A stretch of 64,000 nucleotides of DNA. Origin: Gari tellinella (taxonomy: Eukaryota; Mollusca; Bivalvia; Cardiida; Psammobiidae). Made by a program: the position numbers and the translations under genes. This document shows positions 327-60,273 of this stretch, piece after piece; positions within the stretch are counted from its first letter, which is position 1; each line of letters begins with the position of its first letter. The notes beneath the pieces are model-generated. The model was not told the origin of the DNA, searched no databases, and saw nothing but the letters and a program-made list of their open reading frames with translations. Where the stretch lies: the NCBI GenBank assembly GCA_922989275.2, contig OV277863.1, forward strand, positions 51,256,999 to 51,320,998, written 5' to 3'.

Positions 327-543
327 TTAACCCCTTCACTGCCCGTGACGTCATCAATTCTAACAACTTATCGTCTGCTTTTAATTCTCAAATTTAAATT
401 TTAGGTATTTTGACTTAAGAAATATTGAAATGAGTGTCAAACAGTTTGTATCCTGATCAGACGCCGCGTGACGCGGCGTCTGATCAGCATTCAACTGTTT
501 GCAAATTACTCTTGCACTCGGGGTAAGGTAGTGAAGGCGTTAA
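327..543. mobile_element. Family C MITE, subtype C1 (TTAA)
   Basis: Complete palindromic element bounded by TTAA on both sides. Ends read TTAACCCCTTCACTGCC and its near-complement. A CRE octamer TGACGTCA lies at 346-353 and a GTCTGC motif follows. The centre (about 455-490) is core 1, with arms GATCAGACGCCGCG around a GA-type loop. Similar copy at 3213-3433. TTAACCC ends and a TTAA target are known for piggyBac, so I infer a piggyBac-derived MITE. Confidence 0.8.
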
Positions 544-599
544 CGCGCCAATCAAAATTCTTCTTTTTTATTATATTAACTCTTTTAGCATCACCTATA

Positions 600-797
600 T
601 TGTAAGGCTTTCACCTCTTCATCGCTTTAATATATGTGCTTCAATGTTGTGTCTGCAACATCGTTTCAAAGTTAGAATTAAGGCAGAATGGCTGAACGAA
701 CTTTCAAAACGAATGTCAAAGATTGACGTAGCGTCTGATCAGGATCTAAACTGTTTGTAAGGGTGTCTTTCTTCGCCATTGACAGTTAAGGGGTTAA
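600..797. mobile_element. Family C relic, subtype C3
   Basis: Reverse-oriented C3 copy: a CTTCAATGTTGTGTCTGCAA segment, one core-1 arm (GTCTGATCAGGATC) and right end GGGGTTAA at 790-797. The left arm of the hairpin is gone. Confidence 0.55.
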
Positions 798-807
798 TGA
801 TGTTTCC

Positions 808-1060
808 TACAGTGGAGAATCTGTTATTCTTTCCCAATAAACGCGTTTACGCTAAAACTATTATTTGCACTGCAAACAGTTTGGAGCCAGATCAGACGCC
901 GGGTAACCCGGCGTCTGATCAGGCTCCAAACTGTTTGCCACCAAGATAAACATGAATTATCAGAATTGTCAAAAAGTTGTACTTTTCTACGTTTTAGTGT
1001 TTTGCATTTGCGTACGTTTGCGTTTTAAAAACGGGAAAGAATAACAGATTCTCCACTGTA
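808..1060 (-). mobile_element. Family A MITE, complete
   Basis: TA-flanked element with TIRs CAGTGGAGAATCTGTTATTC. Inside each TIR lie TTTCCC and GTTTAAACGCAAACG or AATAAACGCG. Core 1 in the family A form (GGAGCC, GATCAGACGCCGGG, loop TAA) sits off-centre. One stem mismatch, GCCT/GCCA next to GATCAG, recurs in most A copies and gives them orientation. CAGTG ends and a TA target are typical of Tc1/mariner-pogo derivatives. Confidence 0.9.
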
Positions 1061-1287
1061 TATCATATTAAGATGTGCAGTCATAAGGTGTTGTCGTCTA
1101 TATGTTTTGTCCCGACTATAGAAAAACGAGTTTGCAATCCGATTAAACTGCTCACTTGTGACAGCTCGATGACAAGTCAGACTACAAGTGCTCCTTTTTT
1201 CTGAATATAGATATCACTTAAGCTGATTAAATGTCACATAGATCTATGATGAGGATTCTAGAAATATAATATCAACTGCGATCAATA

Positions 1288-1650
1288 TACAGTGATCCTT
1301 CCCTACAAAGGCCCTCCCAACTACGACTCCCTCCTTACAACGACTCTTACAGCTGCTCCCCAAACAAGACAATTATGTCCAACCTTTTCATGGCTGCAAT
1401 GTCGTCTACTTAAATATTTGTCTGCTGCTTTTCTGAGATGTACATGTAAGTGGTCATTTTGATAGAATAACAATAAAGACGAGAGACAAACAGCTTGACT
1501 CCAGATTAGCCGCAGCTTTACGCGGCGTCTGATCTGGATTTAAGCTGTTTGCAAATGTAAACCAATTTCCCTCCCTAGAACAAATCCCTCTTAACAACGC
1601 ACACTATTTTTATCACCAATTTGGTGTCGTTGTAGAGAGGGAGCGCTGTA
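1288..1650 (+). mobile_element. Family B MITE, complete
   Basis: TA-flanked element. Left end CAGTGATCCTTCCCTACAA, right end GTTGTAGAGAGGGAGCGCTG. The inner left block carries GACTCCCTCCTTACAACGAC and a TCTGCTGCTTTTCTGAGAT segment. Core 1 lies at about 1505-1550 with a decayed left arm. CAGT(G/A)..CCTCTCTA-type ends resemble pogo/Tigger elements. Confidence 0.85.
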
Positions 1651-1719
1651 GTTAGTATCAACCATCATTATACCTTTTTTGCCTACCACATGTAATTGTG
1701 TTATAACTACCTCGCTAGC

Positions 1720-2060
1720 TAACAGTTTTGATCATGATATGAGACGCCGGATCAATGCGCGTCTGATCTGGATCCAACATGATTGATACACTGATAATAG
1801 TTTCTAAGAGAAATGTAGATAAATCATTTCTGCCAAGTGTCGCAGACGACACTTATTGCAGACGACAATTACATAAGGTGAATTGGCTAACATTTGCAAA
1901 CACATTGGATCCAGATCAGACGCCGCGTAACGCGGCGTCTGATCTGGATCCAAAATGTTTGTTACTCATAAACACACTTTCTTCAGTTTCAAAAAGCATA
2001 CAATATATGTTTTTCGCAGACGAAATATTTGAGGCAGACGACAATTCAGCATGATAAATA
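1720..2060. repeat. Family C-like elements, overlapping relics
   Basis: Two core-1 hairpins. A decayed one lies near 1742-1775. A perfect one lies at about 1905-1955, with arms GGATCCAGATCAGACGCCG. GCAGACGACA motifs flank the second on both sides. No intact TTAA termini. The apparent 91-codon frame at 1779-2054 runs through the hairpin and is not credible as a gene. Confidence 0.55.
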
Positions 2061-2144
2061 TTAAGAAAATTGTCAGGAATATTATGCAATTATATTTGAT
2101 GATAAATGCCTATTACATGCCACGTTTTCATTGAGACAACACTA

Positions 2145-2356
2145 ACTCTTTCAATGCTGAATTGTCGTCGGCTGCAAATACATCGTTTGCGAAAAAAAAT
2201 TATACTCAATTTTTATGCTTTCTAAACTTGAGAAATGTTAAATATGGATGGCAGACTGTTTGGATCTAGATCAGACGCAGCATCATACGGCGTTTGAACT
2301 GGATCCAATATGTTTGCAAATGTTAGCGAAGTCACACTCAGCAAGATAAGGGTTAA
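2145..2356. mobile_element. Family C MITE, diverged
   Basis: Left end ACTCTTTCAATGCTG, right end AAGATAAGGGTTAA with TTAA at 2353-2356. The core-1 arms are decayed (GATCAGACGCAGC / CGGCGTTTGAAC). GTCGTCGGCTGC replaces the usual GTCGTCTGC. Confidence 0.6.
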
Positions 2357-2462
2357 CACATCCTCTCCTCTATTGTTTGGAGGAATTGATGAAGTATATA
2401 ATTATATAATCTTATTTATGAGTAAATGTCTTTTTCAAATATTTTAATACTCGCGTTAATAA

Positions 2463-2547
2463 ATAAATACGAAAGACTCAAGCAGGAAACGCAACACAAA
2501 CAATACACCCACCTCTCAAGCAGAACACAAACACAGTCATACCATAA

Positions 2548-2578
<31 letters not shown>

Positions 2579-2813
2579 GTACACTCCCATTCCTTCATCT
2601 ACACACTAAATAGAAAACAACACGCAAGACAAACATAAAGCAAAGTGAACATAGGAGCCCGCCTTGGTACGGTCAGAAGCAATCAATAATTAATTATAAA
2701 TTAATCATTAACTACCACTGGGGGGTTAAACCTGGGTTTAGGGGCGCCCAACCTCACACTTATCTCCTATTTTTTCCTATAAAGACGAACAGTGTACATA
2801 AAATATAAACCCT
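2463..2813. repeat. Microsatellite-bearing dispersed repeat O, copy 1
   Basis: A 351-bp unit whose second copy is at 36015-36362. The order is: ACGAAAGACTCAAGCAGG block, (CA)n tract at about 2550-2578, CATTCCTTCATCTACA, CGCCTTGGTACGGTCAG, an AT-rich ATTAATTATAAATTAATC segment, then GGGGGGTTAAACCTGGG and AGGGGCGCCCAACCTCAC. The boundaries agree between the copies (start ATAAATACGAAAG, end AATATAAACCCT). Frames crossing the CA tract are artefacts. Confidence 0.75.
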
Positions 2814-3212
2814 GTTCCACACGCCCAGGTACGTATTAGCCAAATGTATATAGTTACGCTGTTCACAAACATTGACAGATAAAAGCTACGGATGCAATAC
2901 ATGTTTCTCAATCAAATACATTCATTTGTAAACGCGGGTAAAGTCTATGCGAAAGAAGTAACATGACAGTAGAAAATCAAGCATACAGCCAAGCTAAGCT
3001 ACTAAAATTATTGACAAATAAATAATTAAACCCGGACTTTTAAAATACACGACTCCAGTTTCCGAATAATTATTGTCCATTTGGACTATTGAACGTTCTT
3101 TTTAAACAGGTTGCCAAATTATTAACTGGTCAGACCTTAATAAGATGGCTCTTTTAGGAACCCTCTGATCTGGTTTTACACTGTTGTCAAAGGGCACGTG
3201 TATTTCTTGCAT
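2814..3212. other. No gene seen
   Basis: AT-rich unique-looking sequence. A weak hairpin relic at about 3120-3195 (GGCTCTTTTAGGAACCCTCTGATCTGG) resembles segments near 7290 and 54270. Confidence 0.4.
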
Positions 3213-3433
3213 GTTAATCCCTTCACTGCCGTGACGTCATCAATTTTAAACAATTGTCGTCTGCTTTTATTTTTCAAAGTTAATTTTTAGGTATTCTGAC
3301 TTAAAAAATATTGAAATGAGTGTCTGTCAAACAGTTTCGATTCTGATCAGACGCCGCGTTACGCGGCGTCTGATCAGAATCAAAACTGTTTGCAAATAAC
3401 CATTGTGTTCGGGTTAGGCAGTGAAGGGTTTAA
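3213..3433. mobile_element. Family C MITE, subtype C1
   Basis: Complete copy with TTAA at both edges, CRE TGACGTCA at 3232-3239 and a perfect core-1 hairpin (about 3335-3385, loop TTA). The arms extend as ATTCTGATCAG / CTGATCAGAAT, where other subtypes have ATCCAGATC / GATCTGGAT. Confidence 0.82.
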
Positions 3434-3892
3434 CTTCTTGTAGCAAGGTGGTAATTTGGTAAGCGATTTGAGTCATTGCAACTGTATTGAACCACAAACT
3501 TGAAACTACGCACAGGCTCGACTTATCCATGGTGTATAGTCAATCAGTCAATTTTGTTCAAACAAAATGAAAGTTCGTTACAATATTCAATTTCGATTAC
3601 CATGATGGCATAAAACTCATTCTGCTTGACAGCCTCACATCATTTGCCGTTGTTGATCAGAGCTGCAAAGAACAGTATGGTGTATCATTACATGGCTTTG
3701 AATGGACGTTAATCTTTCTTAGAAACAAACTCTCATTTCGCTTCAATATCATGGAAATATAATAAGCATAATTATGTCACGAATTCAACCGAGTTATTTG
3801 TCACGTGAGTCTCATTTAACAAGATACTGTTACGTTTGCCGTTCTAAAATATTCGAATATTGAAAAATTAGTAAAATATTATTTTCAATCAA
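3434..3892. other. No gene seen
   Basis: AT-rich sequence without a repeat family I recognise and without a convincing reading frame. Confidence 0.4.
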
Positions 3893-4115: not shown

Positions 4116-4137
4116 TCTAATAATTATGTTCTTGAAA

Positions 4138-4476: not shown

Positions 4477-4493
4477 AAAATAATATAATTTTT

Positions 4494-4499
4494 AATAAA
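4494..4499 (+). terminator. Possible poly(A) signal
   Basis: AATAAA about 20 bp after the stop of the candidate exon at 4138-4476. In AT-rich DNA this hexamer is common by chance, so it supports the exon only weakly. Confidence 0.35.
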
Positions 4500-5466: not shown

Positions 5467-5787
5467 TACAGTGTTCCCTCTCTACAACGGCCATCCCAAC
5501 AATGACTCTCTCCTTACAACGACCCTTGCTGCAAATTATCTAACGGGTCAATAATGCTTTTACTGCTGCAATATTGTCTAATAAGTGGAGATTTTGATAG
5601 AATAAATGACGAGTGACAAACAGCTTGAATCCAGATCAGACGCCGCGATACGCGGCGTCTGATCTGGATTAAAGCTGTTTGCAAATGTGAGGCTAGTCTT
5701 ATTTTCCCTCTCTATAACGACTCCCTCCGAACAACACACATAATATTTGTCTCCCATAGGGTGTCGTTGTAGAGAGGGAACGCTGTA
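5467..5787 (+). mobile_element. Family B MITE, complete
   Basis: TA-flanked with TIRs CAGTGTTCCCTCTCTACAAC and GTTGTAGAGAGGGAACGCTG. The core-1 hairpin at about 5630-5670 is perfect, with loop ATA. Frames on both strands here are shadows of the palindrome. Confidence 0.88.
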
Positions 5788-6866: not shown

Positions 6867-7158
6867 TACAGTGGAGAATCTGTTATTCTTTCCCGTTTAA
6901 ACGCAAACGTACGCAAACGCAAAGCGCTAAAACGTAGATAAACACAACTTTTGGACAATTCTGATATTTCATGTTTATCTTGGTGGCAAACTGTTTGGAG
7001 CCTGATCAGACGCCGGGTTTCCCGGCGTCTGATCTGGCTCCAAACTGTTTGAACTGCAAATAATAGTTTTAGCGTAAACGCGTTTATTGGGAAAGAATAA
7101 CAGATTCTCCACTGTATGACGTCACCAATGACGTAAGAATAACAGATTCTCCACTGTA
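6867..7158 (+). mobile_element. Family A MITE with an extra outer end
   Basis: A complete A element (6867-7116, hairpin at about 7000-7045). It is followed directly by a 42-bp spacer-plus-TIR: TGACGTCACCAATGACGTAA, then GAATAACAGATTCTCCACTGTA ending at 7158. The same extra module, reversed, sits on the left of the copies at 7848 and 33034. A full CRE octamer lies at 7117-7124. Confidence 0.85.
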
Positions 7159-7528: not shown

Positions 7529-7770
7529 GGGGCCCGTTTCATAAAAAATCTTCGACAAATGTTGTCGTAAGTCAAATTATAAAACTCTCAATTATTATTT
7601 ATTTCTCCATCTAATCCTGTCTTGTGATATCTTTTTGGAATCGTCTTGAAAAGACGATTCCAAAAAGATGTCACAAGACATGATTCGATAGAGAAATCAG
7701 AGATTAAACGTATTTTAAAGTTTTGACTTACGACAACATTTGTCGTAAGAAGCTTTATGAAACGGGCCCC
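7529..7770. mobile_element. Family F palindromic MITE, complete
   Basis: Near-complete inverted repeat. Ends GGGGCCCGTTTCATAAA and TTTATGAAACGGGCCCC; inner blocks TTGTCGTAAGTCA, CTTGTGATATCTTTTTGG, centre GTCTTGAAAAGAC at about 7650. This is the best-preserved of five F copies. Confidence 0.85.
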
Positions 7771-12335: not shown

Positions 12336-12548
12336 TGAACCCTTTGCCTGCTGGTCGCGACTTTATTGATTTTTGCAAACAGTTTAGATCCAGATCAGAC
12401 GCCGCGTAACGCGGCGTCTGATCTGGATCCAAACTGTTTGACACTCTTCTTTAGCTTTCTTCACTTAATAAATGTATAAATCAAAATTTAACAAACTATG
12501 CAGACGACAATTTCGAAGCAGACGACATCGCCGAAGGATAAGGGTTAA
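12336..12548. mobile_element. Family C MITE, subtype C2
   Basis: Left end AACCCTTTGCCTGCTGG with a mutated TTAA (TTGAA). Right end AAGGATAAGGGTTAA. Perfect core-1 hairpin of more than 25 bp per arm at about 12380-12440. GCAGACGACA occurs twice near the right end. Confidence 0.8.
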
Positions 12549-14063: not shown

Positions 14064-14253
14064 TTAACCCCTTCACTGCCGTCGTCTGTTTTAATTCCCC
14101 ATTCTTACATTTTCGGCATTCCGACTAAACACATACATGTATTGAAATAAGTGTCAAACAGTTGGTGTCCTGATCGAACGCCACGTTACGCGACGTCTTA
14201 TCAGTGTCTAAACGTATTGAAATAGCCATAGGTAAGTCCAGTAAAGGGGTTAA
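14064..14253. mobile_element. Family C MITE, subtype C1, diverged
   Basis: TTAA at 14064-14067 and 14250-14253; TTAACCCCTTCACTGCCGTC left end. Core-1 arms are decayed (GATCGAACGCCACG / CGCGACGTCTTATC) and the internal CRE has been lost. Confidence 0.7.
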
Positions 14254-16079: not shown

Positions 16080-16145
16080 TACGTTGGACTTAAGCGAGTT
16101 CGAGTATTAGCGGCTCAATCTTACTTTACATTATGAATGATGTTA
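16080..16145 (+). repeat. Left copy of a 66-bp direct repeat flanking a family A MITE
   Basis: From TACGTTGGACTTAAGCG to GAATGATGTTA. The right copy is at 16392-16457 with two base differences. Both copies begin and end with TA. Confidence 0.9.
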
Positions 16146-16393
16146 CAGTGGTGAATATGTTATTCTTTCCCATTTAAACGCAAACGTACGCAAACGCAAA
16201 GCGCTAAAACGTAGAAAAGAACAACTTTTGGACAATTATGATATTTCATGTTTATCTTGGTGGCAAACAGTTTGGAGCCTGATCAGACGCCGGGTTACCC
16301 GACGTCTGATCTGGCTCCAAACTGTTTGCACTGCAAATAATAGTTTTAGCGTAAACGCGTTTATTGGGAAAGAATAACACATTCTCGACTGTA
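16144..16393 (+). mobile_element. Family A MITE, complete
   Basis: TA-flanked; left end CAGTGGTGAATATGTTATTC, right end AACACATTCTCGACTG. The core-1 hairpin (about 16278-16325) has one new mismatch (CCCGACG). It lies exactly between the two 66-bp repeats. Confidence 0.9.
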
Positions 16394-18217: not shown

Positions 18218-18467
18218 TACAGTAGAGAATGTGTTATTCTTTCCCAATAAACGCGTTTACGCTAAAACGTTTATTTCCACTGCAAACAGTTTGGAGCCAG
18301 ATCAGACGCCGGGTAACCCGGCGTCTGATCAGGCTCCAAACTGTTTGCCACCAAGATAAACATGAATTGTGAGAAATATCTAAAAATTGACATTTTCTAC
18401 GTTTTAGTGCTATGCGTTTGCGTACGTTTGCGTTTAAACGGGAAATAATAATAGATTCTCCACTGTA
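18218..18467 (-). mobile_element. Family A MITE, complete
   Basis: TIRs CAGTAGAGAATGTGTTATTC and TAATAGATTCTCCACTG, TA at both ends, intact core 1 at about 18290-18340. It abuts the family D copy at 18468, which lacks its left TTAA. Confidence 0.9.
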
Positions 18468-19263: not shown

Positions 19264-19665
19264 TACAGTGGGGGAAATGTTGTTCTATCTGTTCTATCCC
19301 ATTCCTGTTACAACCCGTTTGTCCATTATGAATAGTTTGGAGTCAGAACAAATGCCAGGTACAGTGGAGAATCTGTTATTCTTTCCCGTTTAAACGCAAA
19401 CGAAATGCAAACGCATTGTACTAAAATGCAGAAAATAACAACTTTTTCACAATTCTGATAGTTGATGTTAACCTTGATGACAAACAGTTTGGAGCCTGAT
19501 CAGACGCCGGGTTACCCGGCGTCTGATCTGGCTCAAAACTGTTTGCATTGAAATTAATAGATTTAGCGTAAACGCGTTTATTGGGAAAGAATCACGTTTT
19601 CTCCACTGAAACCGGCATCATACCAGGCTCGCAACTGTTTGTTATTGAGATTTAACTAATCGTTA
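19264..19665. mobile_element. Old family A copy split by a younger family A copy
   Basis: Outer left part 19264-19361: CAGTGGGGGAAATGTTG, TTTGGAGTCAGAACAAATGCCAGG. The inner complete A copy (+ orientation) occupies 19360-19610. The outer right part resumes as ACCGGCATCATACCAGGCTC, then GCAACTGTTTG. The insertion point is the TA in the hairpin loop of the outer copy. The right-hand target TA has mutated to AA. Confidence 0.8.
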
Positions 19666-22390: not shown

Positions 22391-22640
22391 TACAGTGGAG
22401 AATCTGTTATTCTTTCCCGTTTAAACGCAGACGTACGCAAACGCAAAGCACTAAAACGTAGAAATGAACAACTTTTGGACAACTCTGATATTTCATGTTT
22501 ATCTTGGTGGCAAACAGTTTGGAGCCTGATCAGACGCCGGGTTACCCGGCGTCTGATCTGGCTCCAAACTCTTTGCACTGCAAATAAACGTTTTAGCATA
22601 AACGCGTTTATTGGGAAAGAATAACACATTCTCCACTGTA
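22391..22640 (+). mobile_element. Family A MITE, complete
   Basis: TA-flanked with full TIRs and intact core-1 hairpin at about 22520-22570. Long minus frames (98 and 102 codons) run through it; equivalent frames recur in other A copies. Confidence 0.92.
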
Positions 22641-23299: not shown

Positions 23300-23579
23300 C
23301 TACGGATAAATATGATCCAAACTGTTTGCAAAAATGATTTCAAGAACACAGGATAACGGTTAACATTGTCACGCTATGGATAGATTTGTGATAACCAGTG
23401 CAAACAGTTTGGATCTAGAAGGGACGCCGAGTAACTCGGCGTCCCTTCTAGATTCAAATTGTTTGACACCCGCTAATGATACTAGTTGAAAGTGAATGTA
23501 AATAATATTGATTCGTGTAGCAGACTACAAATGTTGTAGACGACCATTACATAGCGTGTTAAAGGTTAAATACAGACGT
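23300..23579. mobile_element. Family C MITE with covarying stem, beside a C remnant
   Basis: 23360-23579 is complete with TTAA at both edges. The hairpin arms read CTAGAAGGGACGCCGAG and CTCGGCGTCCCTTCTAG: several bases differ from the consensus arm, yet the pairing is perfect. To its left (23300-23363) a remnant, GATCCAAACTGTTTGCAAAA ... GATAACGGTTAA, ends at the same TTAA. Confidence 0.78.
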
Positions 23580-24832: not shown

Positions 24833-25045
24833 TTAACCCTTATCCTGCGGTGATGTCGTCTGCTTCGAAATTGTCGTCTGCAAAGTTAGTTAAATTTATT
24901 TTTATACATTTTTTAAGTAAAGAAACCTAAAGATGAGTCTCAAACAGTTTGGATCCAGATCAGACACCGCGTTACGCGGTGTCTGATCTGGATCTAAACT
25001 GTTTGCAAAAAGCAATAAAGTCTCGACCAGCAGGCAAAGGGTTAA
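24833..25045. mobile_element. Family C MITE, subtype C2, complete
   Basis: Very similar to 34310-34522. Ends TTAACCCTTATCCTGCGG and CAGCAGGCAAAGGGTTAA. Core arms carry a paired change: AGACACCGCG / CGCGGTGTCT instead of AGACGCCGCG / CGCGGCGTCT. Confidence 0.88.
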
Positions 25046-25852: not shown

Positions 25853-26199
25853 TACTGCGCTCCCTCTCTAAAACGACACCCAATGGGAGACCTAAATTGC
25901 AGGCGTGTTCGGAGGAAGCCGTTGTAGGGAGGGGAAATTAAGACTTGACTTATATTTGAAAACAGATTGAATCCAGACCAGACGCCGCGTAACGCGGCAT
26001 CTGATCTGGATTCAAGCTGTTTGTCACTCATCATTATATTTATTCTGTAAAAATGCCTACTTATATGTAACTTGAGTTATTTGACGATATTACAGGAGAA
26101 GAAGCGTTAGACAAATTTACTGCTTAGGAAAATGCGGCAAAGGTCGTTGTAAGGAGAGAATCGTAGTTGGGAGGGTCATTGTAGGGAGAGAACACTGTA
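25853..26199 (-). mobile_element. Family B MITE, complete
   Basis: Left CTGCGCTCCCTCTCTAAAAC (CAGT mutated), right GTAGGGAGAGAACACTGTA. Core 1 near 25975-26020 with one mismatch. Confidence 0.82.
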
Positions 26200-26337: not shown

Positions 26338-26587
26338 TACAGTGGAGAATCTGTTATTCTTTCCCAATAAACGCGTTTACGCTAAAACTATTATTTGCAG
26401 TGTAAACAGTTTGGAGCCAGATCAGACGCCGGGTAACCCGGCGTCTGATCAGACTCCAAACTGTTTGCCACCAAGATAAACAAGAATTATCAGAATTGTC
26501 CAAAAGCTGTTCTTTTCTACGTTTTAGTGCTTTGCGTTTGCGTACGTTTGCGTTTAAACGGGAAAGAATAACAGATTCTCCACTGTA
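26338..26587 (-). mobile_element. Family A MITE, complete
   Basis: TA-flanked, full TIRs, intact core 1 at about 26415-26460. Confidence 0.92.
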
Positions 26588-27198: not shown

Positions 27199-27451
27199 TT
27201 AACCCTTTCCCTTATAGAAGCGACTTTTAGCACATGCATTTCATTCATCCGCTGAAGAAAATAGTTCCAAATTATACCGTAATGAATATGTGTCATATTT
27301 AAAACTTTCCACATTCTAGCAGGTAATAGCTTAAAGCAGGCTGAAAGTAAAGCAGAATGCGCCTTAGGGCGCATTCTGCTTTACTTTCAACCTGCTTTAA
27401 GTAGTCACATATCTTCAATACTAGAAACAATGCTATCAGGTAAAGGGTTAA
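27199..27451. mobile_element. Family D MITE, complete
   Basis: TTAA at 27199-27202 and 27448-27451; left TTAACCCTTTCCCTTATAG. Core 2 with GCGCCTTAGGGCGC centre. This is the best-preserved long D copy. Confidence 0.87.
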
Positions 27452-28067: not shown

Positions 28068-28428
28068 TATAGCGCTCCCTCTCTACAACGACATCCATTG
28101 GGAGACAAGGATTGTGTGCGCTGTTCGGAGGGAGTCGTTATAGGAATGGAAACTGGCTTATATTTACAAGCAGATTGAATCCAGATCACACGCCGCGTTA
28201 CGCAGCGTCTGATCTGGAGTCAAGCTGTTTGTCACTCATCATTAATTTACTTTCTGTCAAAATGCCCAATATGTCACTTTGAGAAAAAAAAGCAGACGAC
28301 AATTCTTAGCGTTCGATACTGCAGCAATAAAAGGGTACCCATATTGTCCCGTTTAGGGAACTGCAGCAAGGGTCGTTGTAAGGAAGGAGTCGTTGTTGGG
28401 AGGGCCGTTGTAGGGATGGAGCACTGTT
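28068..28428 (-). mobile_element. Family B MITE, complete
   Basis: Left TAGCGCTCCCTCTCTACAAC, right GTAGGGATGGAGCACTG. Core arms GATCACACGCCGCG / CGCAGCGTCTGATC with two mismatches. Confidence 0.85.
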
Positions 28429-29047: not shown

Positions 29048-29284
29048 TACAGTGGAGAAAACGTAATTCTTTCGTTCAAATGCAAACGCATTGCAATGAA
29101 ATATAGAAAATGACAAGTTTTTGACAATTCTGACTACCAGTTTTAATCTGAGTGGCAAACAGTTTGGAGCCTGATCAGACGCCGGGTTACCCGGAGTCTG
29201 ATCTGGCTCCAAACTGTTTGCAATGAAAATAGTAGTTTATGCGTAAACGGGGCTATTTGTAAAGAAAATATTTTCTCTACTGTA
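29048..29284 (+). mobile_element. Family A MITE, diverged subfamily
   Basis: Left CAGTGGAGAAAACGTAATTC, right TATTTTCTCTACTG. Internal GCAAACGCATTGCAATGAAA replaces the usual block. Core 1 has one mismatch (CCCGGAGTC). Confidence 0.85.
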
Positions 29285-30410: not shown

Positions 30411-30639
30411 TACAGTTGAGAAAACGTTGTTTTTTCCCAATAAACGCGTTTACGTTAAAACTATTATTTTCATTGCAAACAGTTTGCAGCAAGATCAGAC
30501 GCCGGGTAACCCGGCGTCCTATCATGCTCCAAACTTTTTGTCACTCAGATTAAAACTTATAATCAGGATTGTCATTTCCTCCATTTTATTGCAATGCGTT
30601 TGCGTTTAAACGGGAAAAAATAACGTTTTCTCCACTGTA
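30411..30639 (-). mobile_element. Family A MITE, diverged subfamily
   Basis: CAGTTGAGAAAACGTTG left, AACGTTTTCTCCACTG right, and ATTTTATTGCAATGCGTTTG as in 17650-17913. Core-1 outer flanks are partly unpaired. Confidence 0.82.
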
Positions 30640-31380: not shown

Positions 31381-31492
31381 AAACATAATCTGTTTTAGAA
31401 AGAATAATTTAATGAATAAGCAAAAGCAAAACGAATGTGGTACAGTTTGTTTCATAACGTTTTGATAGCATTGGAAAACTAGAACGATCCTC

Positions 31493-31647
31493 ACTACAAT
31501 GTGTCCCTCCTTACAACAATGCTTGATTCTGTTACCATAATAAGACAAGTTTGATCAATATTCCTTCCTTATGACAACTCCCTCCGCGAAAACACAAAAC
31601 ACCAATTTTTCCCAGAGGGTGATATGTTGTGGATAGGGAGTACTGTA
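31493..31647 (+). mobile_element. Family B MITE with large internal deletion
   Basis: Left TGTGTCCCTCCTTACAAC, then TATGACAACTCCCTCCGCG, and right GGATAGGGAGTACTGTA. The whole hairpin is missing. Confidence 0.6.
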
Positions 31648-32553
31648 ATCCTTATTTGTTTTAATTTAAGTAGTCAGAAAATGGTTTCGCACGATCGTTT
31701 AGAACTTTAACGATCCTAAGTGTTATTTTATACAGAAGCAAAAAACGCTAATATGGATCTCAGTTATTGAACTGTTTCAAGTTTATGCTACGATACAATT
31801 CCTGAACCTGAATATTCAGTTAATTAGAAATGGCAAATGGACCTTAAGTAACAAAAGCCGGTACTTTCACTTGAAATAACAGATAATCTTGCCTCAAGAA
31901 ACCCGTCAGCCATATAGTTGTTGAACGACGACAAATAAAAAGAAAAGTATAATTACTAAACGCTGCTTCTTAATGCACCTAAACTATCATTTCGTGAAAG
32001 TTTTACCCTTAGCCTGCTCAATACAAGTGTCGTCTGTTTCAAATACATCGTATGCGAAAAGAAACCTTAGAATCATGTTAAGTTCACCTGGTATAAATAC
32101 TTTCCACAGATTGTCATTTGGTGACCCACTGTCAAAACAGCTGAACTAGTTTGGAACCATGCGAAAGTAAGTGTTGTCATGTCGGCCAAAGGAAAACACT
32201 TTAAATATCCTTTTCTTTACAGTCGATTGTCAAATTTCAAACTAGATCTAATTTGATAGGAATGATGTATAGGACTCTACCAAAATAAATAAAACAGTTT
32301 CATTTCTAAATAGTCATGACCACAAATGAGCGTAGGATATAATTAGGGTTATATAGTGGACACTTTAAACTTCTTCTCGTCTGACACACTACTGGTTGGA
32401 TTTTAAAATAGTTTACACGCATCATCTATAGGTGACCTGTACTCGATTTCTTCAATAATTTCTTGATAAAAAGGCATGTCCGCAATAGGTGGGACAAGAT
32501 TCCTGATATATTGCTGTTTAGCAAAAAAAATCAAAAGTCGTCTTGTTAGAAAC
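31648..32553. other. No gene seen; one C2 relic
   Basis: At about 31999-32080 a C2 left end relic (TTTACCCTTAGCCTGCTC, GTGTCGTCTGTTTC). The remaining AT-rich sequence holds nothing recognised. Confidence 0.4.
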
Positions 32554-32914
32554 TACAGTGTTCCCTCTCTACAACGACATCCAATGGGAGACACAGATTG
32601 TGTGTGTTGTTCGGAGGGAGTCGTTGTAGAGAGGGAAATTGACTTACATTTGCAAACAGTTTGAATCCAGATCAGACGCCGCGTAACGCGGCGTCTCATC
32701 TAGATTCAAGCTGTGTGTCACTCCTCATTAAGTTTTAACGGTCAAAATGTCCATTATGTAACTTTGAGAAAGTTAGCAGACGACACTTTTACGCAGACGA
32801 CATTGCATTCGTGAACAGGTTGGACATAATTGTCCTGTTTACGGAACAGCGACAATGGTCGTTGTAAGGAGGGAATCGTTGTTGAGAGGGTCGTTGTAGA
32901 GAGGGAGCGCTGTA
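32554..32914 (-). mobile_element. Family B MITE, complete
   Basis: TIRs CAGTGTTCCCTCTCTACAAC and GTTGTAGAGAGGGAGCGCTG. An additional internal GTCGTTGTAGAGAGGGAAA (about 32618-32640) copies the TIR. Core 1 is intact apart from GTCTCATCTAG. Confidence 0.9.
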
Positions 32915-33033: not shown

Positions 33034-33325
33034 TACAGTGGAGAATCTGTTATTCTTACGTCATTGGTGACGTCATACAGTGGAGAATCTGTTATTCTTT
33101 CCCGTTTAAACGCAAACGTACGCAAACGCAAAGCACTAAAACGTAGAAAAGAACAACTTTTGGACAATTCTGACAATTCTTGTTTATCTTTGTGGCAAAC
33201 AGTTTGGAGCCTGATCAGACGCCGGGTTACCCGGCGTCTGATCTGGCTCCAAACTGTTTGCACTGCAAATAATAGTTTTAGCGTAAACGCGTTTATTGGG
33301 AAAGAATAACAGATTCTCCACTGTA
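33034..33325 (+). mobile_element. Family A MITE with double left end
   Basis: Outer TIR plus spacer ACGTCATTGGTGACGTCA (CRE 33068-33075), then a full inner element from 33076. Intact core 1. Same architecture as 7848-8089, but with both hairpin arms kept. Confidence 0.9.
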
Positions 33326-34044: not shown

Positions 34045-34290
34045 TTAACCCTTTCACTCTCAATGACGTCATTAAGCGCATTTTCAAACAGTGTTGATCC
34101 TGATCAGATGCCGCGTAACGCGGCGTCTGATCAAGAACAAAACTGTTTGCAACTTGTGTTGAAATTACGCCAGTTACACTGCCTTAAATCTAGCTTTGAA
34201 ATGTTATTGCAGACAACAATATTGAAGCAGACGACAATATGGCTTAGAAGGGGTAAAACTCTCACTATTTCTATGATCACGAAAGGGTAT
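34045..34290. mobile_element. Family C MITE, subtype C3
   Basis: Left TTAACCCTTTCACTCTCAATG with CRE at 34064-34071. Core 1 at about 34098-34140. Right block GCAGACAACAATATTGAAGC, AAGGGGTAAAACTCTCAC and ATCACGAAAGGGT; right TTAA lost. Confidence 0.75.
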
Positions 34291-34309: not shown

Positions 34310-34522
34310 TTAACCCTTATCTTGCGGTGATGTCGTCTACTTCGAAATTGTCGTCTGCAAAGTTTGTTAAATTTAGAATTTTACATTTTTTAAGTAAAGA
34401 ACCCTAAAGGAGAGTGCCAAACAGTTTGGATCCAGATCAGACACCGCGTTACGCGGTGTCTGATCTGGATCTAAACTGTTTGCAAAAATCAATAAAGTCG
34501 CGACCAGCAGGCAAAGGGTTAA
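34310..34522. mobile_element. Family C MITE, subtype C2, complete
   Basis: TTAA both sides; near-identical to 24833-25045, including the AGACACCGCG / CGCGGTGTCT arms. 20 bp separate it from the C3 copy to its left. Confidence 0.9.
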
Positions 34523-37798: not shown

Positions 37799-38048
37799 TA
37801 CAGTGGAGAATCTGTTATTCTTTCCCGTTTAAACGCAAACGTACGCAAACGCAAAGCGCTAAAACGTAGAAAAGAACAACTTTTGGACAATTCTGATAAT
37901 TCATGTTTATCTTGGTGGCAAACAGTTTATAGCCTGATCAGACGCCGGGTTACCCGGCGTCTGATCTGGCTTCAAACTGTTTGCACTGCAAATAATAGTT
38001 TTAGCGTAAACGCGTTTATTGGGAAAGAATAACAGATTCTCCACTGTA
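37799..38048 (+). mobile_element. Family A MITE, complete
   Basis: Full TIRs and intact core 1 at about 37935-37980. Its left TA coincides with the right target TA of the Tc1-like element. Confidence 0.92.
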
Positions 38049-38694: not shown

Positions 38695-38904
38695 TACAGT
38701 AAAACCTCGCTATTACGACCACTAAAACGAAGGCTAATTGATTGTATAATAGAGAAGTGAAAGCTTAAAGCAAGGTGGCAGTGAAACAGAAAGCTCCTAA
38801 AGGAGCTTTCTGTTTCACTGCCATCTTGCTTTAATCGGTCACCTATCGTAAACACCCTAATAATGAACATAATTTAGTGGTCGTAATAGAGAGATTTTAC
38901 TGTA
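38695..38904. mobile_element. Family E MITE, complete
   Basis: TA-flanked, ends CAGTAAAACCTCGCTATTAC and GTAATAGAGAGATTTTACTG. Perfect centre GAAAGCTCCTAAAGGAGCTTTC with core-2 arms AAAGCAAGGTGGCAGTGAAA. One base differs from 44315-44524. Confidence 0.92.
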
Positions 38905-40087: not shown

Positions 40088-40443
40088 TACAGTGCTCCAT
40101 CTCTATAACAGCACCCATTCGGAGACAACGATTGTGTGTGTTGATCGGAGGGAGTCGCTACAGGGAGGGAAGATTAAGATTGGATTACGTTCGAAAACAG
40201 CTTGAATCCAGAGCAGTCGCCGCGTAACGCGGCGTCTGATCTGAATTCAAGCTGTTTTTTACTTTTCATTATATTCGTTCTGTCAAAATGTCCACTTATA
40301 TGTCACTTTGAGCAAAAACAATAGACGACAATTTTAAGTAGACGATATTGCATCAGTTAGCGTTAGACATAAATTGTCTTATTTGGAGAACTGCAGAAAG
40401 CGTTGCTGTAAGGAAGGACTCGTTGTTTTGAGGGAACACTGCA
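40088..40443 (-). mobile_element. Family B MITE, complete
   Basis: CAGTGCTCCATCTCTATAAC left; GTTTTGAGGGAACACTGCA right. Core-1 arms nearly perfect (AGCAGTCGCCGCG / CGCGGCGTCTGATC). Confidence 0.83.
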
Positions 40444-44314: not shown

Positions 44315-44524
44315 TACAGTAAAACCTCGCTATTACGACCACTAAAACGAAGGCTAATTGATTGTATAATAGAGAAGTGAAAGCTTAAAGCAAGGTGGCA
44401 GTGAAACAGAAAGCTCCTAAAGGAGCTTTCTGTTTCACTGCCATCTTGCTTTAATCGGTCACCTATCGTAAACACCCTAATAATGAACATAATTTAGTGG
44501 TCGTAATAGAGAGATTCTACTGTA
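44315..44524. mobile_element. Family E MITE, complete, near-identical to 38695
   Basis: 210 bp, TA-flanked, one T/C difference near the right end (GAGATTCTACTG). Flanks differ from the other copy, so this is dispersal rather than local duplication. Confidence 0.93.
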
Positions 44525-48522: not shown

Positions 48523-48884
48523 TACAGTGTTCCCTCTCTACAACGACACCTTATGGGAGACAAAAAATGTGTGTGTTGTTCGGAGGGAGTCGTTACAGAG
48601 AGGGAAATTGGTTAACATTTGAAAACAGCTTAAATCCAGATCAGACGCCGCGTAACGCGGCGTCTAATCTGGATTCAAGCTGTTTGTCACTGCTAATTAA
48701 GTCTTTTTCTGTCAAAATGTCCAATATGTAACTTTGAGAAAAGCAGCAGACGAAAATTTTAAACAGACGATATTGCAACAGTAAAAGCGTTAGACATAAT
48801 TGTCCTGCTAAGGGAACTTCGGCAAGGGTCGTTGTAAGGAGGGGGTCGTTGTTGAGAGGGCCGTTGTAGCGAGGGAGCACTGTA
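48523..48884 (-). mobile_element. Family B MITE, complete
   Basis: TIRs CAGTGTTCCCTCTCTACAAC and GTTGTAGCGAGGGAGCACTG; intact core 1 (about 48640-48680). It is the full-hairpin relative of the two arm-deleted copies at 13558 and 45860. Confidence 0.9.
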
Positions 48885-51912: not shown

Positions 51913-52273
51913 GTGAGCGTCAATACGGATACCCTAAATTGTACCCCGCAATTTGCACTAAGATATTCACTGTTTGCGGATATCTGATTTTGTGGATGAT
52001 AGGCGTTAACAAAGTGAAGCTGTACACATTTAATTTGACCAAGAAACATAATATGCTTTTGTTGTTTTTTTAAGATTGTCGGCTGCTTGAACCTTAATAA
52101 ACGTGAAATAGATTGTTGTTTCATATTGTTTAAAGTATGTAACATTTTCATCGAGTCATCATTTGTAATTTGTTCAGCGGGGATAGTATAATAAGCTAGT
52201 AGATACTTAAATCAATTGTTCCTGGATGTTGAAATGAACTCTCCCTATGTGTTTGTTGGAAGATTTCAATATA
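51911..52273 (+). repeat. Left copy of a long direct repeat flanking the LINE
   Basis: 363 bp from AGGTGAGCGTCAATACGG to GAAGATTTCAATATA. The right copy, 53713-54065, is 353 bp; the difference is mainly the extra ACTTAAATCA in this copy. Only a few substitutions are visible. Confidence 0.92.
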
Positions 52274-53712
52274 GCCCTCATAACAACATCCCCGAACAAG
52301 CTACAGTATATGATCGATATTGTTTACAAATATACGCGAGACTGGGACTTCAAAATTAATGTCTCGAAATCGAACGTAATGGTAATGACCCGCTCTCGGT
52401 CCCTTAAAGTCCCAGACTTCAAAATCGACAACGTTATCATTCCAAAAGTCAAAACAGCAACTCACCTAGGCATATCGATCTCTGACAATCTAACATTACA
52501 ATCAAGGATAGAGATGCGTTGTCAGAAAGGCAGAAATGCGTTCTATGCAATGTCAGAACTAGGCATGCACCCACGCGCTTTAAATCCCTTATTGACCGTC
52601 AACCTGTATAGAAAAATTATTCTGCCTAGCATCTTATACGGATCGGAACTGTGGAACGGTATGACTATCTCGAACAAAACCCTATTAAACCGTACTCAGC
52701 ATGATGTTGCGAAGAAAAGTCAAGGCTTCCCTATACGTACGAAATCAGACATGTGCGAATCCATGGTTGGGCTAATGCGAATTGAAGCCGAAATCGAAAA
52801 ACGTAAACTTATGTTCCTTTACACTATCCTTAGTTTACCCAGTAGTGCTCTGTCGCGTCAGATCTTCCTGCGTCGGTACACATATTTTGCGTTAAATCCA
52901 CAAATCAAGATGCTTGGTTTCATTCCTGATATCTGTGAGATTCTGCTGAAATACAAACTAGAGAACTTTCTTAACGCTTTTATAGCTGATTCGCACTCTC
53001 TCCCTTCTCGGCCGAGTTGGAAAATCACAGTAAATAACACTGTCAAGTGCATGGAGGTAGCACTGTGGACACAACGTCTATAGTCTGAGTTGGACTTTCA
53101 GCTATATAGACAAATCAAAACTGATATTGAACCCGCTATTGTGTGGAGACTAGCTACCTCAAAATCTGAACGTTACATCGCTCACACCGTATCAAAAGCG
53201 TGGATACGTACTCCTGAAATATCAGAAACGTATACATGTACATTTTCCGTAATAAATAATATTGACACACTTCGGCATGTTATTGGGTCATGTCAAGCTC
53301 TAGAACACGAACGCATCTGCTTCTTGTCCAACGTAGAACTATACTGTGGTAACGAGTTACGTCGTTTTCTAGAGCTTGCAAATGTAGAAGATTTTGTCAC
53401 ATATATCCTAACTGGTTCGTGCTGTAACGGTCAGTTACAGCAGATCTTCATGAAACTTGCAGCCAACTACGTATTTGTTTGTATAACTTTTATTGCGGCT
53501 ATATACACCTAGCACAGAGTATACGACCATGCTAGCGTTGAAGTGACTAATACTCAGTGATGCACATGGATATGTGTATAGTGTCATGTAAATACACGTT
53601 ATGTTTACCATTGTTTACCATTATCTATCTTAAAATGTTAATTAGCATGCATGTTTAAATGTTCCATGAAATCTCCTTTAATGGAGGAAATAAAGATAAA
53701 GATACTGAACTG
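52274..53712 (+). pseudogene. 5'-truncated LINE: C-terminal reverse transcriptase region
   Basis: Reading begins at ALITTSPNKLQYMIDIV, where a LINE RT continues after its YADD box, so the catalytic core is gone. Then KINVSKSNVMVM, THLGISISDNLTL, LYRKIILPSILYGSELWN (thumb and post-RT region) and RTQHDVAKKSQGFP. A TAG at 53081-53083 interrupts, and the same frame then runs to 53512. Near its end lies TCTFSVINNIDTLRHVIGSC with ALEHER, a C-x-x-[C]...H...C zinc knuckle whose second Cys appears replaced by Ser. The 3' UTR ends in AATAAAGATAAAGATA. Clade not assigned. Confidence 0.85.
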
Positions 53713-54996: not shown

Positions 54997-55005
54997 ATAT
55001 GTTAT

Positions 55006-55220
55006 TTAACTCTTTTGCACGCAAACGGAATTACAGTATTATATTTGCAAATAGTTTGGATTCTGATGAGACGCCGCGTGTCGCGGCGTCTCATCAGAAT
55101 CCAAACTGTTTGAAAAACTGATCCTATTTTAAAAATAATTTTAGAAAATGCTTATATGATAATAGTAGCAGGAGACAGTTGTTTCAGACGGCAGTATTTC
55201 TTTGCGTCAAAAGAGTTTAA
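55006..55220. mobile_element. Family C MITE, complete
   Basis: TTAA at 55006-55009 and 55217-55220; ends TTAACTCTTTTGCACGC / GCGTCAAAAGAGTTTAA. Hairpin arms GATTCTGATGAGACGCCGCG and its exact complement carry a paired CAG-to-GAG change. Confidence 0.85.
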
Positions 55221-55429
55221 CCCTTAGCCTGCCACGCACGACTTAGCTCCATATGCAAACAGCTTGGATCAGGATGAGACGCCGAGTAACTCGGCGTCTC
55301 ATCCGGATCCAAGCTGTTTGACACTCGGACAACATTTTCAGCAATTTTGAGCAACTTTGAAGCACTTTGAAACTTGAAGCAGACGAGAAATATAGCAGAC
55401 GACAATTTATTTGGCGGGCTAAGGGTTAA
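55217..55429. mobile_element. Family C2 MITE sharing a TTAA with its neighbour
   Basis: Left TTAACCCTTAGCCTGCC, right GGCGGGCTAAGGGTTAA. Arms GGATGAGACGCCGAG / CTCGGCGTCTCATCC with paired changes. Its left TTAA is the right TTAA of 55006-55220. Confidence 0.87.
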
Positions 55430-56880: not shown

Positions 56881-57110
56881 TTAACCCATTACACCATAAA
56901 TTGGCGTCTCAATTATTCCTCCACAGAGAAAACGATTTATACAGTCATCAATATACGCAGTAAGAAATATGTTCTATATCCTTGCAGTTAAAGTTGGTTG
57001 AAAATTAAGGTAAGGAGAATGCGCCTTAAGGCGCATTCTGCTTTCCTTTCAACCTGCTTTGAGAGGTCGAATAGCTTAGATTCTATAAACAGGCTAAGTG
57101 GTCCATTAGT
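56881..57110. mobile_element. Family D MITE
   Basis: Left TTAACCCATTACACCATAAA, right end decayed (GGTCCATTAGTTCAA). Perfect tip GAATGCGCCTTAAGGCGCATTC. End type shared with the nested copy at 24416. Confidence 0.8.
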
Positions 57111-57124
57111 TCAACAGCTTAAAT

Positions 57125-57467
57125 TACAGTGCTCCCTCTCTACAAGGGCCCTACCAACAACGACTTCCTTCTTACAACGACTCTATCCGTTGTTCCCCAA
57201 ACAAGACATTTATGTCCAAACTTTTCATGGCTGCAATGACGTATACTTACATTTTTCGTCTGCTGTTTTTTCTCAAATGTACATGTTAGTGGACATTTTG
57301 ATAGAATAAATATAATGGCGACTGACAAACAGCTTAAATCCAGATCAGACGCCGCGTTATTCTGTTTGCAAATGTAAACCAATTTTTCTCTCTATAACGA
57401 ATCCCTCCGAACAACACACACAGTCTTTGTCTCTCATTGGATGTCGTTGTAGAGAGGGAGCGCTGAA
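57125..57467 (+). mobile_element. Family B MITE, right hairpin arm lost
   Basis: TIRs CAGTGCTCCCTCTCTACAAG and GTTGTAGAGAGGGAGCGCTG. Core reads CAGATCAGACGCCGCGTTAT joined to TCTGTTTGC, so the right arm is deleted from the loop. Confidence 0.86.
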
Positions 57468-57474
57468 GTATAAT

Positions 57475-58382
57475 CGGACGGTGTAATGACGAAAAGTCTC
57501 CCGCTCCGAATTGTGTCCCCGGGTTATTGTTTCGACGTAGAAATTGTCTTCCTATGTCCTTTTTTCTAAGGCCAAATAAAAAGATACTTGTATTTCCTAT
57601 TACATGCCCAAAAATATTAGGGACGGACGGTCGGAAAATCTTTTTTTTATTATTATTATTATTATTTTTATATAAACATACAATAATACATATAACTTTC
57701 TGGTGGAGTATTTTACATTGACATACATGAATATACTCTATTGTGCAAAGTCCTGGGCCCTATATAAAAAAAACTTATAAATATCCATTTAAATATTTGA
57801 TTTTATTGAAAAAAATATCTTAAAAATCTAAACCATGTGATTGTTATAATATCTACATACCAAGACGACAAAGTAGTGTCATATATGACAGATGGAATGA
57901 TTGAGACTTTGAAATGTGTGGTATGCATGTTTAATGTGTCATTGATATGTGCCGGCTGCATGTTGATGTGTTTATGGTTAACTAACTAGCATATCACATC
58001 TTCAAGGAAGCTACTTTATGACAGATTTAGAGCAAATTTCACTTCGATATTTGCTAAATCATATTTAAAATCAACTTCAAAACACTCAAACGTCTATAAA
58101 TGAGCTTTGTAAACAATTTAACGGAGAAAATATTCTATTGCGTAACAATTGTCGCTGAAAAGACCGACATTTGTCAACACATTTTTCGAAAAGTGAAAAA
58201 AAAATTAGGGTCGGGGGAAAAAACTAGGGTCGGTCGGGTTACCGGAACCGTACTTTTTAATTTTGCCTAAGCATGGGATACATATTTCTTTGACGAACCA
58301 AGACAAAGGACATTTAGCTATGTCGAAACATGTCATCCGGGGACAATTTTAGAGGGGAACTGATGTCGTCATTACACCGGAT
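57475..58382. mobile_element. TIR element R, about 0.9 kb, no transposase
   Basis: Imperfect inverted ends of about 85 bp: CGGTGTAATGACGA, TGTCCCCGG, TGTTTCGACGTAG and TATGTCC at left; the complement (CATAGCT variant) at right ending TCGTCATTACACCGG. Inside are a TTATTATTATTATT run (57647-57668) and a repeated GGGTCGGTCGGGTTACCGG-like motif. Non-autonomous, superfamily undetermined. Confidence 0.65.
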
Positions 58383-58865
58383 TACTAACAACATTTATGT
58401 GAGCTACTTGTTCAAAAGATGTGCGATCTGAAATGATTTTATTGTGAAAGAAAGATATATCCTTCCGTCTTTAATGTACTGTAAGCTGCGCAAATATGAT
58501 TCTGTTTTAATCAATGTTTACACGCTAGAATGGCGTTGCCGTTTTGCTTACATTCTGATCATTATTGGCAGTTCCGGATCATAATGGGATGTTCTTTGAA
58601 TACTGCAAAAAGACTTAACAACACTGAAATGAATGTCTGTCAATATTTCCCAAAGGTTTGTATGGTCTGAAAGCATTTACATTTTTTATGTGTTAAGATT
58701 GATACGTAAAGTAAAAAAAAATATACATGTACCACTATTTCAGTCATTTTTCACACACATTCCGTTTTGTGAAGCTAACCTTAATGTCATACAACAACTG
58801 TGGGTCTGACATATTTACACATAACGGGAAGGTTAGTGATAATTAAGAAATGGAAGACTTTTTAG
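58383..58865. other. No gene seen
   Basis: AT-rich; nothing recognised. Confidence 0.35.
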
Positions 58866-59071
58866 TTTAACCTTTTTACTCTCAATGACGTCATAAAGCG
58901 CATTTGCTGATCAAGATCTAAACTCTTCGTCACTCGTTTTGAAATTACGTTAATTTTACTGCCTTAAATCTAACTTTGAAACGATATTGTAGACAGAAAT
59001 ATTGAATCAGACGACAAAATGGCAGTGACGGTTGTTAAATACCTCACGATAAATGATCATGAAAGTGTTAA
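58866..59071. mobile_element. Family C3 MITE, left hairpin arm lost
   Basis: TTAA at 58866 and 59068; CRE TGACGTCA at 58886-58893. CGCATTTGCTGATCAAGATC shows that most of core 1 has been deleted. Confidence 0.7.
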
Positions 59072-59247
59072 GTATAACAGACACAAATAAAAAACATACC
59101 CTTCCATCATCAAATCAGTGACATCATTCGAAACTTGTAAACTCTGATTGAGATCATAATACACAATCATTGTTAATCAGGTTAACCCATTTAGACCTGG
59201 ATATTGCAATACACACTGTTTGTGTGCTTTGCTCGGATATGTCGTCA

Positions 59248-59497
59248 TACAGTGGAGAATCTGTTATTCTTTCCCAATAAACGCGTTTACGCTAAAACTA
59301 TTATTTGCAGTGCAAACAGTTTGGAGCCAGAGCAGACGCCGGGTAACCCGGCGTCTGATCAGGCTCCAAACTGTTTGCCACCAAGATAAACAAGAATTAC
59401 CAGAATTGTCCAAAAATTGTTCTTTTCTACGTTTTAGTGCTTTGCGTTTGCGTACGTTTGCGTTTAAACGGGAAAGAATAACAGATTCTCCACTGTA
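59248..59497 (-). mobile_element. Family A MITE, complete
   Basis: TA-flanked, full TIRs, intact core 1 (about 59328-59372; one AGAGCAG substitution). Open frames on both strands are by-products of the palindrome. Confidence 0.92.
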
Positions 59498-59613
59498 GTT
59501 ATTCAAGGATATTCTAAAGTGCTGCCGTGCTTGTCCATACAGCAGAAAATGTCATATGAAAAAGCGAATTGTGCAGATTGTGATGAGAATGTGCATGTTT
59601 TTCTACTTGATTG

Positions 59614-59760
59614 ACCAGGGTTCAAGGTTATAAGGCTTTAAATGTGAGTCGTTCTCAAGCATTTGATTGGTCAGATTCAAGCCTAGGCTTAAAACTGTCC
59701 AATCAAAGCTTGAGAACAAACTCAGGCTCAGCTCAAACGCTTTATAATATTGGACCCTGG
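59614..59760. mobile_element. Family G palindromic element, copy 3
   Basis: CCAGGGTTCAAGGTTATAAG left; TTTATAATATTGGACCCTGG right. Centre CAAGCCTAGGCTTAAAA with ATTGGTCAG and TGTCCAAT. Confidence 0.78.
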
Positions 59761-59811
59761 CTTTCTTTACAGCTAACCTATCGGTATGTTGCTTTACATC
59801 GAATACACTGA

Positions 59812-59975
59812 TTATTTGCAAATAGATGGATCCTGGTCAGATACCCCGTATCGCGGTGTCTGATCAGGATCCAAACTATTTGACAATCATGTCAATATGT
59901 TGTAAGGCAGTTAACGTACACTTTGAATTTTAGTAATAAAAGCACACGACAAATATGGTCCAAGGAAATAGTTTT
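59812..59975. repeat. Family C relic with intact hairpin
   Basis: GGATCCTGGTCAGATACCCCG / CGCGGTGTCTGATCAGGATCC. TTAA ends not identifiable. Confidence 0.55.
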
Positions 59976-60023
59976 ACTATACCAGTGTACAGCCACCACC
60001 ACCTGTGAGACAAATTACTGTTC

Positions 60024-60273
60024 TACAGTGGAGAATCTGTTCTTCTTCCCCGTTCAAACGCAAACGTACGCAAACGCAAAACACTAAAACGTAGAAAAGT
60101 ACAACTTTTTGATAATTCTGATAATTCATCTTTATCTTGGTGGCAAATAGTTTGGAGCCTGATCAGACGCCGGGTTACCCGGCGTCTGATCTAGCTCCAA
60201 ACTGTTTGCACTGCAAATAATAGTTTTAGCGTAAACGCGTTTATCGGGAAAGAATAACGTTTTCTCCACTGTA
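60024..60273 (+). mobile_element. Family A MITE, complete
   Basis: TA-flanked; CAGTGGAGAATCTGTTCTTC left, AACGTTTTCTCCACTG right (the right end is of the diverged-subfamily type). Core 1 intact. Confidence 0.9.

Follow-up and report, generated by a model that had tools for sequence, protein, structure and literature searches.

A hairpin core shared by short DNA transposons with different ends and target sites in the bivalve Gari tellinella

Introduction

The CMITE families of Acropora corals have TTAA targets and piggyBac-type ends, with an estimated ~1,600 copies, and contain a 75-bp internal region, described as of unknown origin, that is more conserved between families than their terminal repeats; the same report describes a new element made by CMITE insertion (PMC2872659). 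MER6 is a Tc1/mariner-type miniature inverted-repeat transposable element (MITE) with a conserved domain from a short interspersed nuclear element (SINE; PMC6887750), and DNA elements including MITEs have been described as abundant in bivalve genomes (PMC10294476). Here, we report on a 65-bp palindrome, core 1 (CAAACAGTTTGGATCCWGATCAGACGCCGCGTWACGCGGCGTCTGATCWGGATCCAAACTGTTTG; the core), in a stretch of 64,000 nucleotides from the bivalve Gari tellinella (contig OV277863.1, positions 51,256,999 to 51,320,998, assembly GCA_922989275.2; hereafter the window), where it lies within three families of short elements, A, B and C, that differ in their ends and target sites.

The coral CMITEs and MER6, as presented in the sections of the reports used here, are the nearest precedents. 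CMITEs resemble the present elements in their TTAA targets, piggyBac-type ends, conserved internal region and a new element made by insertion, and CMITE family VI has a left end (CCCTTTCACTGCCA) identical to the consensus end of C; however, they comprise TTAA end types only, and the sections describing them present neither a hairpin nor covariation nor spread to TA-target elements (PMC2872659). MER6 likewise is a mariner-type MITE carrying a conserved domain of another element class, but its donor is a SINE, those sections do not present the domain as a hairpin, and it represents a single composite (PMC6887750). The main text of the bivalve transposon annotation uses neither palindrom- nor hairpin words (PMC10294476). 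Among the matches listed by searches of the open-licence literature, no paper reported a single hairpin combined with TTAA, TA and other ends, and the core sequence gave one 11-letter match in each of 7 papers, none of them on transposons by title. Hairpin repeats of this TTAA kind are common in bivalves. Work on how some MITEs reach hundreds of thousands of copies usually concentrates on ends and transposases.

Results

The core lies in three element families with different ends

Within the window, the arm GATCAGACGCCG matched 97 times with at most two mismatches compared to 1.39 expected (the largest of 100 shuffles gave 6), and the block GCAGACGACA matched 55 times with at most one mismatch compared to 1.94 expected. 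A profile search identified 174 cores, 62 of them in the window, in a 264-kb sample consisting of the window and 20 pieces of 10 kb whose positions were fixed before being seen. Across the 1.6-Gb genome (80 contigs), the strict inner 31 bp of the core occurred 139,314 times and the reversed control 0 times. No Rfam RNA family was hit at gathering thresholds, and searches of viral and of prokaryote contigs gave 0 matches each.

Full-length copies in the sample numbered 42 for A, 17 for B and 21 for C, and a clean split at the edges of the core was obtained for 71 of the 80. A elements (~250 bp) have TACAGTGGAGAA... ends, with the core centre ~100 and 156 bp from the ends; the corresponding values are 132 and 230 bp for B (~362 bp, TACAGTGCTCCCTC... 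ends) and 73 and 141 bp for C (~213 bp, TTAACCC... ends, consensus TTAACCCTTTCACTGCC..GGCAGTGAAAGGGTTAA). With target-site letters partly built into the search patterns, and C copies accepted only if TTAA stood at one or both ends, TA/TA flanked 34 of 40 A copies and 11 of 16 B copies (for want of usable ends or flanks, 5 of 45 copies of A and 1 of 17 of B were left out), and TTAA/TTAA flanked 10 of 15 C copies. Independent support for the TA duplication of A came from at least 10 junction pairs ~247 bp apart, among the first 100 places listed, in which an A copy sits inside a core loop and the target TA is doubled.

The elements are short non-autonomous DNA transposons and fit the description of MITEs by their consensus lengths of 213-366 bp, terminal inverted repeats, TA or TTAA targets and high copy number (the 28-bp end of A has 61,376 + 61,504 exact genome copies), coding capacity being judged by length only. 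C, together with the E elements described below and known from three contexts only, shows the TTAA target and CCY-type ends of piggyBac-type MITEs, and A shows the TA duplication and CAGTG ends of Tc1/mariner-type MITEs. B may be a pogo-type MITE, a label based on the similarity of its ends. We confirmed what a first-pass annotation of the window had proposed, namely that one hairpin is common to end types implying different transposases (TA-target A and B, TTAA-target C), and found the observation to be larger than described: the sharing reaches a fourth end type, D, and a similar pattern holds for a second hairpin.

We found no evidence that the hairpin is mobile on its own, as had also been suggested. 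The sample held no convincing solo core; of 76 cores with no clear ends of type A, B or C, 14 show no trace of a known end by the patterns used, and such traces arise by chance in 2-10% of windows. Most of these 14 are decayed; they include the D hairpin at L022, and TTAACC-type ends surround the best preserved of them (L019:8649). The loop TA of the core might be an insertion hotspot where elements collect and exchange cores, since the window has one A copy within a core loop and 69 + 72 such junctions occur genome-wide. However, ~700-1040 junctions would be expected under random TA hits, according to a rough estimate from samples, which is above the number observed and leaves this explanation highly improbable. 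At G000:C10:4604415-4604824, five A-end/core-arm junctions lie exactly 97 bp apart on one strand, which looks like a tandem array of a junction-holding unit.

Related and further hairpins occur under other ends

D elements (GGGGCCCGTTTTACTAAAC ends, ~246 bp) carry a related hairpin, with both ends present in 19 of 20 loci fetched by the hairpin pattern; the D hairpin arm occurs 3,404 + 3,449 times genome-wide. E elements combine TTAA ends with another related hairpin. The arms of core 1 (C form) align without offset with those of D and E at 23/32 and 23/31 positions, and D aligns with E at 24/31, values that 0 of 2000 letter shuffles reached in each case. In four of the 24 elements with D ends, the hairpin is of another kind, resembling that of CAGGGCTCC-ended elements (24/34; 4 copies). 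A third hairpin type with GGGGCCCG or CAGGGCTCC ends was seen at positions 7529-7770 of the window and at L012:3928-4171, L013:3478-3552, L019:8237-8311 and L020:8777-8851.

A second hairpin, core2 (70 bp), was found in TTAA elements (32 aligned copies), with a related form in TACAGTAAAACCTC-ended TA elements (7 copies); its sites in the window include 27330-27401, 38765-38834 and 44385-44454, among others. Hairpin sharing over different ends is recurrent in this genome. Because core2 and core 1 are alike at 18/31 positions, core2 may be a distant relative of core 1, and the two cases of sharing may not be fully independent.

D (GGGGCCCG) insertions into the cores of other elements (L041-L060, L026:6402-6647, L027:9520-9750) were counted in 5/24 cases compared to 1/72 for A, B and C together, a post hoc word test (Fisher 0.003) that provides a lead only; by a profile test, D insertion into cores was not significant (3/22 compared to 145/3000).

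The arms remain complementary while their sequence changes

Covariation was evaluated on 73 of the 174 cores; these were chosen by hand from 110 listed cores for their good preservation, with a few variants added. In this alignment, 19 of 32 pairs had changed on both sides and 93.7% of cells were paired, and the covariation score of 0.181 compares to 0.080 in shuffles (reached by 0/500) and to at most 0.041 when the alignment was slid. In a wider set of 116/174 cores (at least 45 of 65 letters alike), where subfamily differences are counted many times, a single fixed consensus gave 188 cells that were two-sided and paired, 52 two-sided and unpaired, and 501 one-sided. Six cores fold as DNA hairpins at -31 to -43 kcal/mol (z -13 to -17). 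In A, 37 of 41 readable cores retain a T-T mismatch at pair 17/49, and one E copy has A-A there.

The main functional rival to a hairpin is a double-stranded protein-binding site, recognised by a host factor or by the transposase of another element, in which the palindrome would reflect a dimeric site. Consistent with such a site, CAAACAG and CCWGATCAGA keep both their sequence and their spacing (seven variable letters) in core 1, D and E while the inner stem differs. Yet the inner stem and the spacer stay complementary by two-sided changes, a feature that would be unnecessary in a dimer site composed of two short blocks, and we therefore consider this alternative unlikely.

Constraint on the core in the source copies

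Variants seen at least twice were counted as inherited and singletons as private, leaving out CpG sites and gappy columns. Copies were found by whole flanks only and re-oriented (1 of 52 A copies could not be), a search that avoids a bias towards good cores and favours conserved flanks. In the 51 A copies, inherited variation affected 69/2725 cells of the core (2.5%), 547/5363 of the inner flanks (10.2%) and 188/2842 of the terminal repeats, taken as the outer 30 bp (6.6%); the site-level p value for core versus inner flanks was 9e-5. Singletons, in the same order, amounted to 1.83%, 1.73% and 1.83%. Split by age, inherited variation in core, flanks and terminal repeats was 0.3, 3.0 and 1.4% in 28 young copies and 3.4, 13.6 and 6.2% in 23 older ones. 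The 23 B copies gave a similar picture, with shared variants at 4.6, 11.0 and 6.8% (p 1.4e-4) and singletons at 3.0, 3.4 and 4.0%. In A and B, an inserted core decays like its surroundings but changes little in copies that spawn others. Since inherited variation is low in the core and private mutations are equal, the constraint acts in the transposing lineages and not after insertion.

Template switching between the arms (palindrome correction) could also produce complementary arms without selection, and two-sided changes are indeed common. By reasoning, however, correction would copy about half of the new mutations into both arms and would not lower their rate, whereas the inherited rate of A is about fourfold lower; in addition, the T-T mismatch of A has persisted through the A radiation. 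We regard this origin of the complementarity as improbable.

B contains a C element, and A shares little beyond the core

The left part of B aligns colinearly with C. The alignment begins at the first bases of C (TAACCCTTTCACTGC), of which the outermost T is missing, and continues across both GTCGTCTGC blocks as far as the core; its local score was 99, compared to at most 40 among 2000 shuffles, and its anchored score was 100, compared to 24 among 100 shuffles. The right end of C is gone from B. B is hence a composite MITE that holds a recognisable other element, while A shares the core and ~5 bp only. The side block shared by B and C, which the first-pass annotation had pointed out, is real; it is no independent capture, because GCAGACGACA is the subterminal repeat of C and stands in B as part of a C element. 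B and C are therefore not independent captures. A core-less stretch at 31470-31650 was rejected as an empty site for B: a genome search scored 39 other matches (65 candidates), and the join was not spanned by any of them. The stretch most likely arose by deletion, so that we infer the insertion of C into B from the colinear homology.

A shares with C approximately GAGTG to the left of the core and CAA to its right. The older-A consensus has a left flank that is weakly C-like when it is read from the edge of the core (score 30, reached by 3/300 shuffles), and the anchored score of A versus B was 16 (reached by 2/100). A was rejected as a nested C, the similarity being lost when the core-adjacent 5 bp were removed: the remaining flanks showed no significant likeness to C (17/200 and 26/200 shuffles reached the score) or to B (42/200 and 59/200), and a repeat on the re-oriented A copies agreed (21/150 and 27/150 for C). 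A gradual divergence of the ends of one element, which would have undone the original proposal, was not seen, as the flanks of A are not significantly like those of B or C beyond ~5 bp outside the core.

These alignments bear on plain nesting, in which the ancestors of A and of B each received a single C insertion, the resulting composites were amplified and the hairpin hitchhiked without a role. The C element contained in B and the weak likeness at the core edge of A agree with it, and MER6 (PMC6887750) and CMITE-IN (PMC2872659), as described in those reports, show that composites can arise and amplify. On the other hand, hitchhiking is weakened by an inherited variation in the A core of about a quarter of that in the flanks at equal private mutations, the A flanks lose their C-likeness without the 5 bp next to the core, and related hairpins recur in D and E. 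On balance, we find nesting alone rather doubtful.

Transposases and possible partners

The genome encodes piggyBac transposases with open frames and TTAACCC ends (86 DDE_Tnp_1_7 matches including fragments). Twelve piggyBac loci include five with well-paired TTAA ends, of which four share TTAACCCTTTCGGCGCC; the ends of locus L038 (2,642 bp), TTAACCCTTAGACCGCCA / TTAACCCATAGCCCGCCA, are close to one C subfamily. None of the five piggyBac elements with defined ends contains the core, and four have one match to a single short core word. DDE_1 (pogo-type) gave 150 scored matches among 486 candidates, many of them open.

Discussion

We interpret these data as the recurrent capture of a constrained hairpin cassette, whose function we infer. 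The hairpin was conserved while the transposons spread, which suggests that it helps them to multiply, and because both the core sequence and the complementarity of its arms are kept in the copies that produce further copies, it most likely works in cis for propagation. The full proposal, to which we would give an even chance, is that the hairpin passed from TTAA to TA elements and is kept in cis for propagation whatever the transposase, as a cruciform or hairpin serving as hinge or platform. The hairpin is most varied in TTAA (piggyBac-type) elements and is therefore probably oldest there. At least two transfers to TA-target elements would have followed: one into B through insertion of a C element, the right end of which was later lost, as indicated by the colinear homology, and one into A through an event that left only the hairpin and ~5 bp. 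Within an element of ~250 bp, the hairpin may be extruded as a cruciform or as a single-strand hairpin, and the extruded form could then act as a hinge or a protein platform that aids the pairing of the ends or the survival of copies in repair.

Several points weigh against this proposal. The persistent T-T mismatch in A implies that perfect pairing is not required, and the lower variability of the core relative to the terminal repeats is not significant (p 0.20 in A, 0.38 in B). Since the five defined piggyBac elements are without the core, that transposase does not require it. An autonomous partner of A or B was not found, the four inspected DDE_1 loci being without A or B ends. Finally, the constraint speaks for a need during propagation and not for a mechanism.

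A broader version, which we hold only tentatively, is that the hairpin, as a selfish cassette acting in cis, increases the copy number of small transposons whichever transposase moves them, has been captured by TTAA, TA and GGGGCCCG-type elements, with the second hairpin acting likewise, and makes the centre and not the ends the successful unit. An internal hairpin whose inherited change is no greater than that of the terminal repeats, and which occurs under several end types, makes the role of MITE centres directly testable. Caution is also warranted in repeat classification, as grouping by internal similarity can merge unrelated families.

Other features of the window

Table 1. Elements in the window. 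The first C copy (327-543) and the last A copy (60024-60273) delimit the range 327-60273.
Element	Position	Strand	Core	Remark
C element	327..543	+	438-502	TTAA ends
A element	808..1060	-	873-937	TACAGTGGAGAA ends
B element	1288..1650	+	1487-1551	TACAGTG-TCCCTC type ends
Older C-like element	2142..2356	+	2252-2316	
C element	3214..3433	+	3328-3392	
B element	5467..5787	+	5617-5681	nested C left part; bounds from sequence
A element	6867..7116	+	6987-7051	
D-type ends, different hairpin (D2)	7529..7770	+		GGGGCCCG ends
C element	12336..12548	-	12376-12440	bounds from end distances and full-length copy
C element	14064..14253	+	14155-14219	
A element	16144..16393	+	16264-16328	
A element	18218..18467	-	18283-18347	
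A element	19360..19610	+	19481-19545 (own)	in loop TA of older A-type core; clean nested empty site
A element	22391..22640	+	22511-22575	
Probable older TTAA-type element	23353..23569	-	23401-23465	weak ends; compensatory arms GAAGGG..CCCTTC
C element	24833..25045	+	24941-25005	compensatory pair GACACC/GGTGTC
B element	25853..26199	-	25959-26023	
A element	26338..26587	-	26403-26467	
B element	28068..28428	-	28167-28231	
A element	29048..29284	+	29156-29220	
A element	30411..30639	-	30476-30540	older type
Core-less B-like element	31470..31650	+		most likely deletion derivative
B element	32554..32914	-	32653-32717	
A element	33076..33325	+	33196-33260	
C element	34045..34257	-	34085-34149	
C element	34310..34522	+	34418-34482	
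A element	37799..38048	+	37919-37983	
TA-ended element	38695..38904	.		TACAGTAAAACCTC ends; second hairpin (core2b)
B element	40088..40443	-	40194-40258	
B element	48523..48884	-	48622-48686	
TTAA-type element	55005..55220	-	55048-55112	GATGAG type
C element	55217..55429	-	55256-55320	TTAACCCTTAGCC-type ends; GATGAG type
A element	59248..59497	-	59313-59377	
A element	60024..60273	+	60144-60208	

The window has four open reading frames of at least 130 codons, one with a weak reverse transcriptase match and the other three without a Pfam match. Two adjoining open stretches at 52238-53512, the first with a weak reverse transcriptase match, are probably a decayed retroelement. Elsewhere in the sample, L010:8121-8177 is a tandem GC-rich palindromic repeat of the GGCCGTACGG type within AT-rich DNA.

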